Positions 28,561-49,158 of a DNA stretch of 64,000 nucleotides are shown piece after piece. The position numbers and the translations under genes are program-made. The notes beneath the pieces are model-generated. The model was not told the origin of the DNA. It saw only the letters and a program-made list of their open reading frames with translations, and made no database searches. This stretch comes from Arthrobacter sp. RIT-PI-e. GTDB taxonomy: Bacteria; Actinomycetota; Actinomycetes; Actinomycetales; Micrococcaceae. Each line of letters begins with the position of its first letter. Within the stretch, counting starts at the first letter, position 1. Location of the stretch: NCBI RefSeq assembly GCF_001187915.1, contig NZ_LGIU01000097.1:1-64000 (forward strand), in the 5' to 3' direction.

Positions 28561-30429
<1,869 letters not shown>

Positions 30430-30435
30430 GAGGTC

Positions 30436-31911
30436 TCACCAGCCGATTGCATCGAAGGCGTCCTGCAGCTTCCTGCCGCGCTGCGGGTCGAGGGACGCAA
30501 CCCAGGCGATCCGGCCGGCGAGGTGCTCGAGGAACCGGACCCGGCCACGGCGCTGCGACTCCGGCCCGTGCACGCGGCAGTTGTGGAGGATCGCCTTCAG
30601 GGCGTCGTATTCCTTCCGCGGTACGTTCGGATGGCGGTTCACGACGACGCCGGTGACCTGCTGACGCACGGAGGCACCGCGGATGCGCGTCTTCGGCGGA
30701 TTCACCCGGTGCCCCTCGGCGGTGACGATGCGCTCCACGCCACGGACGAAGGCGTGGGCACGGCGCGCGAGGGACGCGGGACCGCTGAACGCGAGATCGT
30801 CGGCGTAACGCGTGTAGGTGGCCCCGGCCGCCTCCGCCCAGCCCTCGAGCCGAGCATCGAGCCTGCGCAGGCTCAGGTTCGCGAGAGCGGGCGACGACGG
30901 CGCACCCTGGGGCAGGTGCGGTGCCCGCAGCGCCTGCGTGAGCCGGGAGCGCTCCTCCGGCGTCCCGCCGTCGGGCATGGCGCGCAGCACCCGCTCGGGA
31001 ACCGCGTGGGTGCATAGGCCGGTCAGCGTATGTGCCACGGCCTCCGGGTACCCCGCCCGCCGGAGTACTCCGAAGATCCGCCCCGGGGGCACGCTGGCGA
31101 AGAAGGAGACGAGGTCGAGCGCGATCACGACGTCGGACCCCGTGTGCGCGGCCGCGTGCGTGCGGGCGCTGCGGCCCGGGACGAACCCGTGGGCGGCACC
31201 GTGCAGCGGCAGGGGCGTGAGGATCCGGTCCAGCACCCTGCGCTGGACGGTGCGGAGCCTGATCCCCGGGATCTCCAGGAGGCGCGGGGTACGTCCTGGA
31301 CGGACCTGCCACGCGTGGCGGTAGTGCCGGAGCGCGGGCTGCGGGGTGCGCTGGTTCCAGGACCGCGTGTCGGCGAACCAGTCCAGCTCCCCCGGGGTCA
31401 GCCGAAGTTCCCGCGCGAGCTCCCCGAGGTCGTGGGTGTCCGCCGGCGCGTCCTCGAGGAGGAAGTGGGACGGAGCGAGCGGGGTCCCCGCGGCTGCGGC
31501 CCTGGCGACGGCCTCCTCGAAAGCGGGCGCGCGCTCGATCCAGGCGGCGAGCTCGCGCGGAGCACCGGCCGGACGTCGGGGGTGGCCGGAGAGCACCGTG
31601 CGGACCAGCGGACCGAGCCAGCGCCGTCGTGCTCCCAGGAGGTCCGCCCCGGCCGCGAGGAGGTCCTCGCGCTGCCAGGTCGGTGCGTCGAGGAAGGCCC
31701 GCGCCAGCAGGCGGGCCATCCCCGGCCCACCCGGGGCAGGACGGCGACGGAGTATGAGTGCTGCAGGTGAGACGTCGGAGAGCCGCGGTGTCCTCGGCGA
31801 TGGTGACGCCGTCGATGTCACCGGAGCGGGGCGCGGAGGATGCGGCGCCGCCGCGTCGGGAGCGTCGTCGCCGGGGCGAGGTGCGCCGGGGCGAGGTGCG
31901 GGGCTGCTCAT
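30436..31911 (-). CDS. Retron reverse transcriptase
   Basis: 491 residues from ATG 31911, with a GGGGGAG ribosome site. Residues 1-45 are Pro/Ala-rich. Residues about 55-180 form a helical extension ending LTPGELDWFADTRSWNQR, a retron-type N-terminal element. The polymerase core follows: RLLEIPGIRLRTVQRRVLDRIL, HGFVPGRS, the first catalytic aspartate D266 in VIALDLVSFFAS, QGAPSSPALAN (335-345) and the YADD box at 369-372 (YTRYADDLAFSG). Two retron hallmarks are present: VTG at 419-421 and a variant NAxxH seen as HAAAH at 252-256. A candidate msr-msd RNA lies 51 bases upstream. Length and extension recall the myxobacterial Mx162 enzyme. No fused effector domain is evident. Confidence 0.93.
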   Translation of the reverse strand: MSSPAPRPGAPRPGDDAPDAAAPHPPRPAPVTSTASPSPRTPRLSDVSPAALILRRRPAPGGPGMARLLARAFLDAPTWQREDLLAAGADLLGARRRWLGPLVRTVLSGHPRRPAGAPRELAAWIERAPAFEEAVARAAAAGTPLAPSHFLLEDAPADTHDLGELARELRLTPGELDWFADTRSWNQRTPQPALRHYRHAWQVRPGRTPRLLEIPGIRLRTVQRRVLDRILTPLPLHGAAHGFVPGRSARTHAAAHTGSDVVIALDLVSFFASVPPGRIFGVLRRAGYPEAVAHTLTGLCTHAVPERVLRAMPDGGTPEERSRLTQALRAPHLPQGAPSSPALANLSLRRLDARLEGWAEAAGATYTRYADDLAFSGPASLARRAHAFVRGVERIVTAEGHRVNPPKTRIRGASVRQQVTGVVVNRHPNVPRKEYDALKAILHNCRVHGPESQRRGRVRFLEHLAGRIAWVASLDPQRGRKLQDAFDAIGW

Positions 31912-31962: not shown

Positions 31963-31976
31963 CGGATCCCGGCCGA
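31963..31976 (-). repeat. Retron a2 repeat
   Basis: CGGATCCCGGCCGA on the plus strand, the exact reverse complement of 32104-32117. It would pair with a1 in the transcript and expose the 3' end from which reverse transcription starts. It ends 51 bases before the reverse transcriptase ATG. Confidence 0.8.
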
Positions 31977-31990
31977 CCTGTCCTGCTGTT

Positions 31991-32027
31991 CGGGCACTGT
32001 GCTGCGCGGAGCGCAGTCAGGTGCCCG
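31991..32027 (-). other. Long interrupted hairpin, probable msd stem
   Basis: CGGGCAC and GTGCCCG (7 bp) enclose a symmetric 4x4 internal loop, then CTGCGC and GCGCAG (6 bp) with a 3-base loop, 37 bases in all. A long stem with an internal mismatch is typical of the DNA part of msDNA. Confidence 0.75.
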
Positions 32028-32103
32028 AGGCGCCCTGTGCTGGTCGATCTGCGTGCCCCGGGGTAGCCCCGGAGAGGAACGCGCACCGCGTGCGTGCTCC
32101 GCC

Positions 32104-32117
32104 TCGGCCGGGATCCG
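32104..32117 (-). repeat. Retron a1 repeat
   Basis: TCGGCCGGGATCCG on the plus strand, perfectly complementary to the a2 repeat 127 bases away. Chance occurrence of a perfect 14-bp inverted pair at exactly these positions is unlikely even in GC-rich DNA. Confidence 0.8.
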
Positions 32118-32250: not shown

Positions 32251-32358
32251 CCGGCGCAGCCGTTCACGGGTAACGTCCAGGTGAGGGGGACGGAGCGGCG
32301 CAGGATCGTGTCCGGGATCCCCCGGCGTCCCACCCCTTCTCCCCGAGGAACACCATCC

Positions 32359-33045
32359 GTGCGCAGCCTTCCGACACTCATAGCCCTCAGCGCCGCCAGC
32401 GTGGTCCTCGCGGGCTGCTCCACCACCGCGGTGGGTTCCCCGGAGCCCGATGCCTCCGCATCCTCCTCCGTGACGGCGTCGCCGTCCTCGACCCCGGCAC
32501 CCCCGACGGCGTCGCCCTCCACCGCTGCGCCGTCCTCCACCCCGGCAGCGCCGTCGACCACGCCGTCGACCACACCGCCCGGTACCCCCGTCCCGACGGC
32601 ACCGGCCGAGAGCGTGCCCGGAACCGTCGAGCCCGCCCCGGCGCCCCCGGCCCCGGTGTCACCCCCCGCCCTGCAGCCCGAAGCTCCCGAGAGTTCCGTC
32701 CCGCCGGCACCCGCGGCGGAGTTCGCCGTCACTCCCGGCCAGGAATGGGGCGAGGTCACCATCTCCGTCCCGCAGGAAGCCTCCATCAGGGTCGACGGCA
32801 GCGGGTACCAGCCCGGGCAGGAGGTCACTCTCATCCTCGGGATCTACCAGAGCGACGGATCGGTGATGGATGATTAGATCGTCAATGCCGATGCCGCCGG
32901 GAACTACAGCACCGTGATCACCCTCCCCGCCGATCTCGAGCCGAGGACGTACGGCCTCCTGGTCATCATCTCGGACGGGAGGATGGGCGGGCCGGAGTTC
33001 GAGGCGTCGAAGCGCTCCGTGGTCATCGAGGTCGTCGCGCCCTAG
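32359..33045 (+). pseudogene. Secreted lipoprotein gene interrupted by an in-frame TAG
   Basis: From GTG 32359 the product begins VRSLPTLIALSAASVVLAGC, a clear lipoprotein signal with lipobox LAGC (C20). A Pro/Ser/Thr/Ala-rich spacer of about 100 residues and a beta-rich domain (VTPGQEWGEVTISVPQEA, YQPGQEVTLILGIYQSDG) follow. Reading stops at TAG 32875-32877, yet the same frame continues without a break in clearly protein-like sequence (IVNADAAGNYSTVITLPADL, RTYGLLVIISDGRMGG, KRSVVIEVVAP) to a second stop at 33043. The domain resembles Ig-like or bacterial surface-adhesion repeats. One base change (CAG or GAG to TAG) accounts for it. Function unknown. Confidence 0.75.
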
Positions 33046-33213: not shown

Positions 33214-34155
33214 CTACTTGCGGCGCGTCTTCGGATCCAGCGCCTCGCGGAGGGACTCACCGAGCAGGGTGAAGCCGAGCGCCGTGATCGCGATGCATGC
33301 TCCCGGCAGGAAAGCGAGCTGCGGGGCGATGGCGAGCTCGGACTGCGCGTAGGTGAGCATGCGCCCCCACTCGGCGGTCTGGGGCAGCCCTCCACCGAGG
33401 CCGAGGAAGGACAGCGCAGCGGCGTCGATCACGGCGGTCGCGAGCGGCAGGGGGGCCTGCACGATCACGGGGCCCATACTGTTGGGGAGCGGGTGGCTCA
33501 TGGTGATCGTCCTGCGGCTGAGCCCCAGGGTCTGGGCGGCCAGGATGTAGTCCGCCCCCCGCTGGGACAGCATGGAGGACCGCAGGAGCCGCGCGAAGAT
33601 GGGGACCTGCGACACACCGATGGCGATCATGATGGCGTACGCGTTCTGACCGAGTACGGCGGCGATGCTGACCGCGAGGAGCAGGTTGGGGACGGAGAGC
33701 AGGATGTCCACGAACCGCATGATGACGTTGTCCACCCAGCCGCCCAGCCCACCGGCCAGGACGCCGAGCAGCATGCCACCCGCCAGCCCCAGGGCCGTGG
33801 AGATGACGCCGATCAGCAGGGACGCCTGGGCGCCCCAGATGAGCTTGCTGAGCACGTCCCCGCCGAAGCGGTCCAGCCCCAGCGGGAAGCCGTCGAGCTC
33901 CCCGGGGCCCGGGATGGTGGTGGGGGTGATGGAGGTGCGCCCGGGGAGGTCGTTGCCGCCGTAGGGCGCGAGGAGCGGGGCGAGGATCGCGACGAGCAGG
34001 AAGACGCCGATGATGACGGCGCCGGCGATGGCCGCGGGATTCCTCCGCAGCCGCAGGAAGGCGTCCCGCCAGAGCCCGGTACCTCGGCCGGAATCGATGG
34101 CGGGGTCGTTCGGCGCGGCGGAGCCGCCGGCGGCGGGGGGCAGGATGGTACTCAT
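33214..34155 (-). CDS. dppC: Peptide/nickel ABC transporter permease, DppC-like
   Basis: 313 residues from ATG 34155, sharing ATGA with the dppB stop. Inner-membrane permease with an N-terminal OppC_N helix (RRNPAAIAGAVIIGVFLLVAILAPLLAPYG) and the periplasmic PLGLDRFGGDVLSKLIWGAQASL sequence typical of DppC/OppC. About five further helices follow. The EAA loop is QRGADYILAAQTLGLSRRTITMSHPLPNSMGPVIV, contacting the ATPase. The DALDPKTRRK-type tail (REALDPKTRRK) is standard. It should pair with DppB and be powered by the fused ATPase at 28561-30429. Confidence 0.92.
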   Translation of the reverse strand: MSTILPPAAGGSAAPNDPAIDSGRGTGLWRDAFLRLRRNPAAIAGAVIIGVFLLVAILAPLLAPYGGNDLPGRTSITPTTIPGPGELDGFPLGLDRFGGDVLSKLIWGAQASLLIGVISTALGLAGGMLLGVLAGGLGGWVDNVIMRFVDILLSVPNLLLAVSIAAVLGQNAYAIMIAIGVSQVPIFARLLRSSMLSQRGADYILAAQTLGLSRRTITMSHPLPNSMGPVIVQAPLPLATAVIDAAALSFLGLGGGLPQTAEWGRMLTYAQSELAIAPQLAFLPGACIAITALGFTLLGESLREALDPKTRRK

Positions 34156-35156
34156 TGCACACGCACCCTCGGGTCGATGACGGAGTAGGACAGGTCCACG
34201 ATCAGGTTGATCAGGGCGTAGAGGATGGCGATGAAGATGATGAAGCCCTGGAGCACGGGGTAGTCCAGCCCGAAGATCGCGTCCCGCAGGAACCGGCCGA
34301 TCCCGTTGAAGGCGAAGACCGTCTCCGTGAGCACCGCACCCGAGATCAGCAGACCCAGCTGGAGGCCGATGGTGGTGACCACGGGGAGCATCGCGTTCCG
34401 CAGGATGAAACTCCCCCGGATGGTGCGCTCCATGAGGCCCTTGGCACGGGCGGTGCGTACGTAGTCGGCGTTCTGCACCTCGAGCACGGAGGCCCGGGTG
34501 ATGCGCACGATGATCGCCAGCGGGATGGTGCCGAGGGCGATCCCGGGGAGGATCAGGTGCTGCAGGGCGTCCCACGCGGCGTCGTACTCACCCGTGAGCA
34601 CGCCGTCCAGCACGTAGAACTGGGTGTAGTGCGTCGCGTCGATCCTCGGGTTCTGCCGCCCGTCCGGCGGGAGCAGCGACCATTGGATGGCGAAGAGGTA
34701 CTTGAGGATGAAGGCGAGGAAGAAGACGGGGACCGTGATGCCGATCAGGCTCAGCACCACGGAACCGTGGTCCAGGATCCGGCCGTAGTGACGCGCGGCG
34801 AGGTACCCCAGCGGGATGCCGATGCCGATGGCGAAGATCAGGGCCACGATGGTGAGTTCCATGGTGGCCGGGAACCGGGTGGCGAACTCCTCGAGCACGG
34901 GGCGTCCGGTGTTGATGGAGACGCCGAAGTCACCGCGCAGCAACCGGCCCATGTAGGTGAGGTACTGCACGGGGAGCGGGCGGTCGAACCCGTAGAGCTC
35001 GTTGACTCGGGCCACCGCCTCGGGCGTGGCCTTCTCCCCCAGCAGGGCCGTGGCCGGGCCGCCGGGAAGACTGCGGACCCAGAGGAACAGCAGGATGGAC
35101 AGGCCGAAGAGGGTGGGGATGAGCAGCGCTATCCGCTTGCCGATGACGCGTAACAC
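34152..35156 (-). CDS. dppB: Peptide/nickel ABC transporter permease, DppB-like
   Basis: 334 residues from GTG 35156 with GGAAGGA upstream. Begins VIGKRIALLIPTLFGLSILLFLWVRSLPGGPATALLG, the DppB/OppB signature, then PLPVQYLTYMGRLLRGDFGVSINTGRPV in the periplasmic loop. Six hydrophobic helices and the EAA loop NADYVRTARAKGLMERTIRGSFILRNAMLPVVT are present. An unusual insertion (QWSLLPPDGRQNPRIDATHYTQFYVLDGVLTGEYDAAWD) is a periplasmic loop seen in this subfamily. A stable hairpin separates it from the binding-protein gene upstream. Confidence 0.92.
   Translation of the reverse strand: MLRVIGKRIALLIPTLFGLSILLFLWVRSLPGGPATALLGEKATPEAVARVNELYGFDRPLPVQYLTYMGRLLRGDFGVSINTGRPVLEEFATRFPATMELTIVALIFAIGIGIPLGYLAARHYGRILDHGSVVLSLIGITVPVFFLAFILKYLFAIQWSLLPPDGRQNPRIDATHYTQFYVLDGVLTGEYDAAWDALQHLILPGIALGTIPLAIIVRITRASVLEVQNADYVRTARAKGLMERTIRGSFILRNAMLPVVTTIGLQLGLLISGAVLTETVFAFNGIGRFLRDAIFGLDYPVLQGFIIFIAILYALINLIVDLSYSVIDPRVRVQ

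Positions 35157-49082: not shown

Positions 49083-49158
<76 letters not shown>

Follow-up and report, generated by a model that had tools for sequence, protein, structure and literature searches.

Retron reverse transcriptases (RTs) of myxobacteria carry an N-terminal extension, as does the RT described below, and its function is given as unknown in Simon et al. (2019; PMC6868368), where the branch motifs listed for retrons at the internal end of the a1 repeat are TAGC, CAGA, CAGC, GAGC, and ACGC. Where actinobacterial retrons are mentioned in that source, they are named only as putative, from bioinformatic surveys (PMC6868368). With regard to the copying of the template, in several retrons host RNase H1 has been reported to contribute to termination and to the removal of the template, and for Eco1 it has been proposed that the folded single-stranded RT-DNA sets termination (PMC8989520). 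Here we analysed a stretch of 64,000 nucleotides from Arthrobacter sp. RIT-PI-e (hereafter the window, whose positions are used throughout), in which a 155-nt element (32117-31963, minus strand) lies 51 nt upstream of a 491-aa RT ORF (31911-30436). This element is very probably the msr-msd RNA of a retron, with the RT as the next gene and the msd as cDNA. No prior description of this retron RNA, or of the polarity test applied below, was recognised in the literature searched, the scope of which left two relevant retron surveys outside.

The element is bounded by the inverted repeats a1 (32117-32104) and a2 (31976-31963), which are perfect over 14 nt. Between them, the minus strand at 32028-31990 reads TCGGGCAC-CTGA-CTGCGC-TCC-GCGCAG-CACA-GTGCCCGA and forms the msd hairpin. 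An earlier note on this DNA had located a hairpin here, and it proved to be real and correctly placed. The note's 7+6 bp with a 4x4 loop held for the 6-bp inner stem and the 4x4 internal loop; the outer arms TCGGGCAC and GTGCCCGA form 8 bp, a terminal T-A pair having been omitted. Its description as the dominant secondary structure was right in part only, since msr hairpin 2 (32074-32056) likewise has an 8-bp stem and is far more conserved. The parts of the locus, with the evidence for each, are the following:

32104-32117, minus strand: a1, 5' inverted repeat of the putative retron ncRNA, CGGATCCCGGCCGA; perfect 14-nt complement of a2.
32103, minus strand: the G that directly follows a1, predicted to prime through its 2'-OH (branch guanosine); conservation and retron branch motifs.
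32076-32100, minus strand: msr hairpin 1, covarying; 8/10 pairs with both-side changes.
32056-32074, minus strand: msr hairpin 2, CUCCGGGG-CUA-CCCCGGGG, nearly invariant; 100% of cells paired in 37 sequences.
32029-32055, minus strand: linker from the msr to the msd stem; position in alignment A1 (see below).
32028-32021 / 31997-31990, minus strand: msd outer arms, 8 bp; folding z, covariation, and wobble polarity.
32016-32002, minus strand: msd inner hairpin, 6 bp, with a UCC loop that is GGA in the cDNA; conservation of the C-UNC-G loop.
31978-32028, plus strand: minimal predicted cDNA, 51 nt, in the cDNA sense; spacings.
31963-31976, minus strand: a2, 3' inverted repeat, with a G (31977) just before it; perfect complement of a1.
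30436-31911, minus strand: retron-type reverse transcriptase, 491 aa, with YADD, VTG, and HAAAH in region X; PADLOC, Foldseek, and motifs.

A divergent ORF (32281-32877, plus strand) with a lipoprotein-like start and a Ser/Pro/Thr-rich tract adjoins the ncRNA; among the loci compared, only the window's own genome matched it (E 1e-15, low-complexity masking). At gathering scores, Rfam matched the window in one place only, a tRNA gene (49083-49156, plus strand), and the retron RNA had no match in Rfam 15 at these scores.

The product of ORF 31911-30436 showed a Pfam RVT_1 match. With PADLOC it matched RT_other over residues 48-491 (584 bits) and RT_outgroup over residues 66-491 (543 bits), the latter profile being unspecific in that it also matches in 3/14 control genomes; the best 25 of 53 PADLOC matches were all retron RT models. 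Its best solved relative by sequence was the retron RT Ec86 (E 1.4e-29). An AlphaFold2 model of the RT (mean pLDDT 87.7) gave as best PDB match in Foldseek the retron Ec86 RT 7v9x (E 1.4e-19, TM 0.78 by target length, 26% identity), and the best 18 Foldseek matches were all retron RTs. In an alignment of 35 sequences, residues Y369, D371, and D372 of the YADD motif were invariant. The VTG of region Y lies in QVTGVVVN in the window RT, and only its G was nearly invariant across the 35 RTs. Region X reads HAAAH, not NAXXH, with H256 invariant and the first residue variable; Mx65 and Ec48 are also reported without the N of this motif (PMC6868368). The predicted structure contains a helical N-terminal domain at about residues 62-141, the model of which (mean pLDDT 86.4) had no PDB match at E ≤ 0.001. 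Four loci (L014, L019, L022, and L024) showed stop codons inside the matched RT frame; in L014, L019, and L024 these stops lie upstream of an open frame that begins after a2 and is 454-461 codons long. A phage origin of the RT was considered and rejected: for 80 of the 162 relatives from viral contigs, the top-ranked had 36% identity, and one short match of 158 residues lower in the ranking had 38%. Plasmid relatives reached at most 49% identity.

The RT was found in 32/295 genomes of the family (E ≤ 1e-30) and in 5/396 genomes of the phylum (E ≤ 1e-20), its own genome included in both; the named genome collection yielded 48 loci. Hosts were Arthrobacter, Frigoribacterium, Cryobacterium, Nocardioides, Pseudonocardia, Amycolatopsis, and others, with a few loci in Paraburkholderia and in planctomycete and acidobacterial assemblies. 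In order to examine the RNA, 37 sequences (the window and 36 of 78 loci) were aligned with MAFFT without reference to structure (alignment A1). These loci were chosen by hand among the nearer relatives, where a1 was clear and ended in GA and a2 began with TC. Duplicates and remoter relatives showing such repeats were reserved for the model search. Over the 46 structure pairs of A1, 93.4% of the cells were paired, and both sides had changed in 30/46. None of 500 shuffles reached any of five pairing measures, and slid versions paired 38-46% of cells. Compensatory changes occurred in four of the five helices: at 12/14 pairs of a1/a2 (96.1% of cells paired), 8/10 pairs of msr hairpin 1 (84.1%), 2/6 pairs of the msd inner stem, and, with at least one both-side change each, 8/8 pairs of the msd outer stem, where the pair at columns 94/129 was nevertheless unpaired in 23/37. 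Msr hairpin 2 had no both-side changes, six of its eight pairs never varying and two varying on one side only. The internal loop kept its 4x4 size throughout A1, with no gap in its columns.

A covariance model built from A1 matched at 73/78 RT loci (E ≤ 0.001), 37 of which (the window, L001, included) are the model's own sequences and a few others near-duplicates. Matches at L067, L072, and L065 were weak, and L030 and L054 gave none up to E 1. The RNA model alone matched one place in the 3.46 Mb genome at E ≤ 0.01, 13/38 genomes of the genus (the other 25 being without a match to the retron RNA), and 15/396 genomes of the order; 14 of these 15 matches adjoin an RT of the same family, and the one at L101 (E 0.0086) does not. 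Since model matches coincide with the family RT, both at the 73/78 loci and in 14/15 genomes, RNA and RT travel together. The distance from a2 to the assumed RT start was 0-60 nt in 75/91 loci, the lower end of this range being given by construction, as the start was taken to be the first start codon after a2. For polarity, loop, and spacing counts, a set of 88 model-aligned sequences was used. This set excluded near-duplicates (L001, L012, L017, L035, and L038), re-fetched loci (L080, L082, L085-L087, and L089), weak, partial, or poorly aligned sequences (L065, L067, L072, and L105), short antisense matches, and L101, which has no adjoining RT. An RT tree was available for 85 of the 88, as L022, L081, and L088 have no usable RT frame. 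A GGGG-NNA-CCCC core like that of msr hairpin 2 (window 32056-32074) was also seen in L055, L057, L060, L063, L068, and L069, which include planctomycete, acidobacterial, and Paraburkholderia members. Msr hairpin 2 may be a candidate recognition stem for the RT.

Folding was compared with dinucleotide shuffles, the window having a GC content of 65-77% in every 1-kb block. The whole a1-a2 RNA (32117-31963), for which the earlier note had proposed this comparison, folded at -90.5 kcal/mol against -69.2 +/- 4.0 (z -5.34), and none of 200 shuffles was as good. The 39-nt msd stem alone gave z -4.79 as RNA and -4.61 as cDNA (0/200 shuffles each). With short flanks (31978-32035) the values were -2.52 as RNA (5/200) and -3.06 as DNA (2/200), and with the flanks 31965-32040 DNA folding reached z only -1.34, 21/200 shuffles folding equally well. 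This last value indicates that the single-sequence statistic depends on the borders chosen; the comparative evidence for the predicted msd stem does not depend on them. Over the 88 sequences, the computed energy of the cDNA was more stable than that of its complement in 58/88, with 2 ties (means -15.8 and -15.0 kcal/mol), and the cDNA z against shuffles averaged -2.30 and was below -2 in 52/88. This is a modest result.

More can be learned from the mismatches that each helix accepts. A helix working as RNA is expected to tolerate G.U and not A.C, and a helix working as cDNA to tolerate RNA A.C (T.G in the cDNA) and not RNA G.U (C.A). In A1, the msd helices had 0 G.U and 27 A.C cells, against 95 G.U and 14 A.C in the a1/a2 and msr helices; the 88 sequences gave 6/63 and 204/35, respectively. 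Counted as parsimony changes (gains or losses) on the RT tree of 85 sequences, the msd showed 5 G.U and 35 A.C changes against 108/32 in the other helices (p 1e-13). The outer-stem pair at A1 columns 94/129 accounts for 21 of the 35 msd A.C changes; without it the figures are 4/14 against 108/32 (p 7.5e-6), and the remaining outer stem has 0 G.U and 11 A.C changes. No polarity was seen in the inner hairpin, with 4 G.U and 3 A.C changes, too few to tell. Mutation without strand bias should be unable to make such a difference, since C-to-T and G-to-A are the same event on opposite strands, and the neighbouring helices can be taken as an internal control. The only family with proven msDNA tried as a control for polarity was the Ec86 type (6 sequences), with 2 G.U and 0 A.C in the msd and 23/6 in the other helices; the test therefore has no positive control, as this set holds too few changes and the A.C excess is absent from it. 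The pair at columns 94/129, which is G-C in the window, is A.C in 48/88 sequences. In the cDNA this is a T.G wobble with a constant position, and it may be a recognition feature.

The inner loop of the msd was conserved as C-UNC-G in 80/88 sequences, and therefore as C-GNA-G in the cDNA. It occurred in 79/81 Actinobacteria (counting L032, the probably mislabelled record discussed below) and in 1/7 other members, the remaining six of these seven being without a GNA loop. To our knowledge, the UNC triloop has no special standing in RNA. All four bases occurred at the middle position, and in 84 triloops the changes on the tree at loop positions 1-3 numbered 3, 20, and 3; the loop of msr hairpin 2 followed a different pattern (24, 13, and 3). 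DNA mini-hairpins that combine a GNA loop with two or more G-C pairs are described as extraordinarily stable and nuclease resistant, GCGAAGC having a Tm of 78 C (PMC4686876). Across about ninety relatives, the wobble polarity together with the C-GNA-G loop suggests that the msd stem has been kept by evolution as folded DNA, namely single-stranded cDNA, and not as folded RNA.

The priming guanosine had been sought in GGCGGAGC, just after a1, and this could be narrowed to its first G (32103), the sole one at the retron xAGx position. G32103 was invariant in 37/37 sequences of A1, and so were the G that follows it and a GG lying two bases beyond; the Mx65-like GAGC that closes GGCGGAGC was not conserved in the same alignment. 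At the branch place, 84/88 sequences had xAGx (GAGG 49, GAGA 25, AAGC 4, GAGC 4, CAGG 1, and AAGG 1). G32103 is accordingly put forward as the best-supported predicted branch guanosine. At the other end, the base before a2 was G in 86/88 sequences (31977 in the window), as in the Ec86 region, and by analogy with Ec86 we take the predicted cDNA to start just inside G31977. Its 3' end would be expected within the linker 32029-32055 or at the base of the msd stem, which gives a predicted cDNA of 51 nt (to the stem base at 32028) up to about 78 nt (to 32055, at msr hairpin 2), bounds set by spacing alone. The small msDNA anticipated earlier thus stands as a bounded prediction; the 65-nt msDNA indicated by the name of Mx65 (PMC6868368) falls inside this spacing-only range.

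The covariation, the adjacent retron-type RT, the wobble polarity, and the GNA loop support the reading of this locus as a retron whose msd hairpin gives the cDNA, as the earlier note had proposed. The retron features present comprise the RT class with YADD and VTG, an a1/a2-flanked RNA beside the RT, and a conserved predicted priming G; as the RT matches PADLOC models, this would be a new retron within an apparently catalogued RT clade. By inference from known retrons, a1 would pair with a2, and the RT, probably holding msr hairpin 2, would prime from the 2'-OH of G32103. Copying would begin at about 31978, proceed to higher positions through the msd stem, and end somewhere from the stem base (32028) to msr hairpin 2 (32055), and host RNase H would then remove the RNA template. 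The selected product, as sequence evolution suggests, would be the single-stranded cDNA, folded as DNA into the hairpin of 8+6 bp with a GNA triloop at its tip; DNA tips of this kind are known for their nuclease resistance.

Other explanations of the element are hard to reconcile with these data. The msd-like stem might work as RNA, with no branched cDNA, in a structured RNA partner of a defence RT or a scaffold RNA. The element is indeed strongly structured as RNA (z -5.34), and other defence RTs (DRT) are described as using structured noncoding RNAs; yet the msd outer stem avoids G.U and accepts A.C, with the flanking helices showing the reverse, the a1/a2 repeats and the xAGx at the branch place are retron traits, and in predicted structure the RT is nearest to retron RTs. 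We consider this explanation highly improbable. Selection on the stem in a plus-strand antisense RNA and not in cDNA would give the same strand polarity, which by itself cannot separate DNA from RNA on that strand. Against it, the reversed polarity is limited to the msd outer stem and spares a1/a2 and the msr, the stem sits where the template of an RT-linked RNA would be expected, and the GNA triloop is a DNA stability motif (PMC4686876), so that an antisense origin has only a very slight chance of being correct.

Hardly any weight can be given to the view that GC-rich palindromes arose here by chance, or that the element is a cruciform or a transcription terminator preceding an ordinary gene. 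The GC content of the window (65-77% per 1-kb block) and the z of only -1.34 with one choice of borders would fit such an origin, but the full-length z is -5.34, the covariation lies far above shuffles and slid controls, and the model matches one place (E ≤ 0.01) in the 3.46 Mb genome; a cruciform would moreover treat both strands alike, against the polarity observed.

In order to look for genes linked to the retron, stop-to-stop frames of at least 90 codons were clustered over 48 RT loci, up to 4 kb per side. None of the 25 largest ORF clusters was a conserved neighbour. Clusters of 41, 28, and 13 loci were rejected as candidate effectors, being mostly opposite-strand frames over the RT gene, and no remaining cluster among the 25 spans more than 7 loci. 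No linked defence effector was found in this search, and the retron element is not defined by having one; single-gene (fused) retrons are represented in PADLOC. The retron adjoins peptide-transporter genes (window 28561-30429 and 33214-35156), dppBC-like upstream and convergent dppDF-like downstream. Besides the window, dppDF-like genes lie downstream in L002-L004, L008, and L031-L033, and dppC-like genes upstream in L032, L033, L081-L083, L085, and L086. That the retron keeps its place beside the same peptide-transporter genes suggests vertical descent within the genus. One of these records, L032 (WNZI01000030.1), is titled Vibrio cholerae 35D and carries an Arthrobacter-like retron and dpp genes, with protein identities to the window of 88.7% (dppDF-like) and 93.5% (dppC-like); it is probably mislabelled or contaminated.

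As to function, the role that we consider most likely, tentatively and at somewhat less than an even chance, is phage defence by an RT-msDNA complex that has no linked effector gene; its output would be the helical N-terminal domain of the RT or an unlinked protein. A narrower proposal, which we regard as unlikely, is a one-protein retron in which the minimal, GNA-capped, nuclease-resistant DNA hairpin, selected on the DNA strand, would be the ligand of the helical N-terminal domain of the RT. If this proved true, the N-terminal domain would be an undescribed effector or sensor, a separate effector would be unneeded, and wobble polarity would offer a general way, from sequence only, to find those parts of RT-linked RNAs that are copied into functional DNA.

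For the retron itself, the covarying RNA family defines, in one actinobacterial group, where template and branch site are likely to lie and which sizes to expect, all of which is open to direct testing. Wobble polarity and the GNA loop represent evolutionary evidence for selection on the single-stranded DNA fold itself, and a selected DNA fold bears on the termination proposal made for Eco1 (PMC8989520). Once checked on a proven retron family, wobble polarity may also be of use in testing other RT-linked RNAs.

Compared with known systems, the myxobacterial retrons Mx162, Mx65, Sa163, and Ne144 have an RT with an extended N-terminus like that of the window RT (PMC6868368), a likeness by description only. 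Their hosts are myxobacteria, whereas the present retron has an actinobacterial host and is known from sequence alone. The branch motif is GAGC in Mx65 and CAGC in Mx162 (PMC6868368), and the present group has mostly GAGG or GAGA instead of xAGC. PADLOC RT_other and RT_outgroup both match the window RT, so that its RT clade appears to be catalogued, in the form of protein models only. Ec86 (Eco1) shares with the present retron the a1/a2 repeats and the guanines at their inner ends (one after a1, one immediately preceding a2), and its msr has, by folding, an 8-bp hairpin with a 3-nt loop like msr hairpin 2. In contrast, Ec86 has an annotated effector gene upstream, and none was found conserved among the 25 largest ORF clusters of the 48 loci searched here; its msd stem is longer and bears a GCCT loop instead of C-UNC-G, and its annotated RT, with 295 aa, has no room for the N-terminal domain found in the 491-aa RT of the window.
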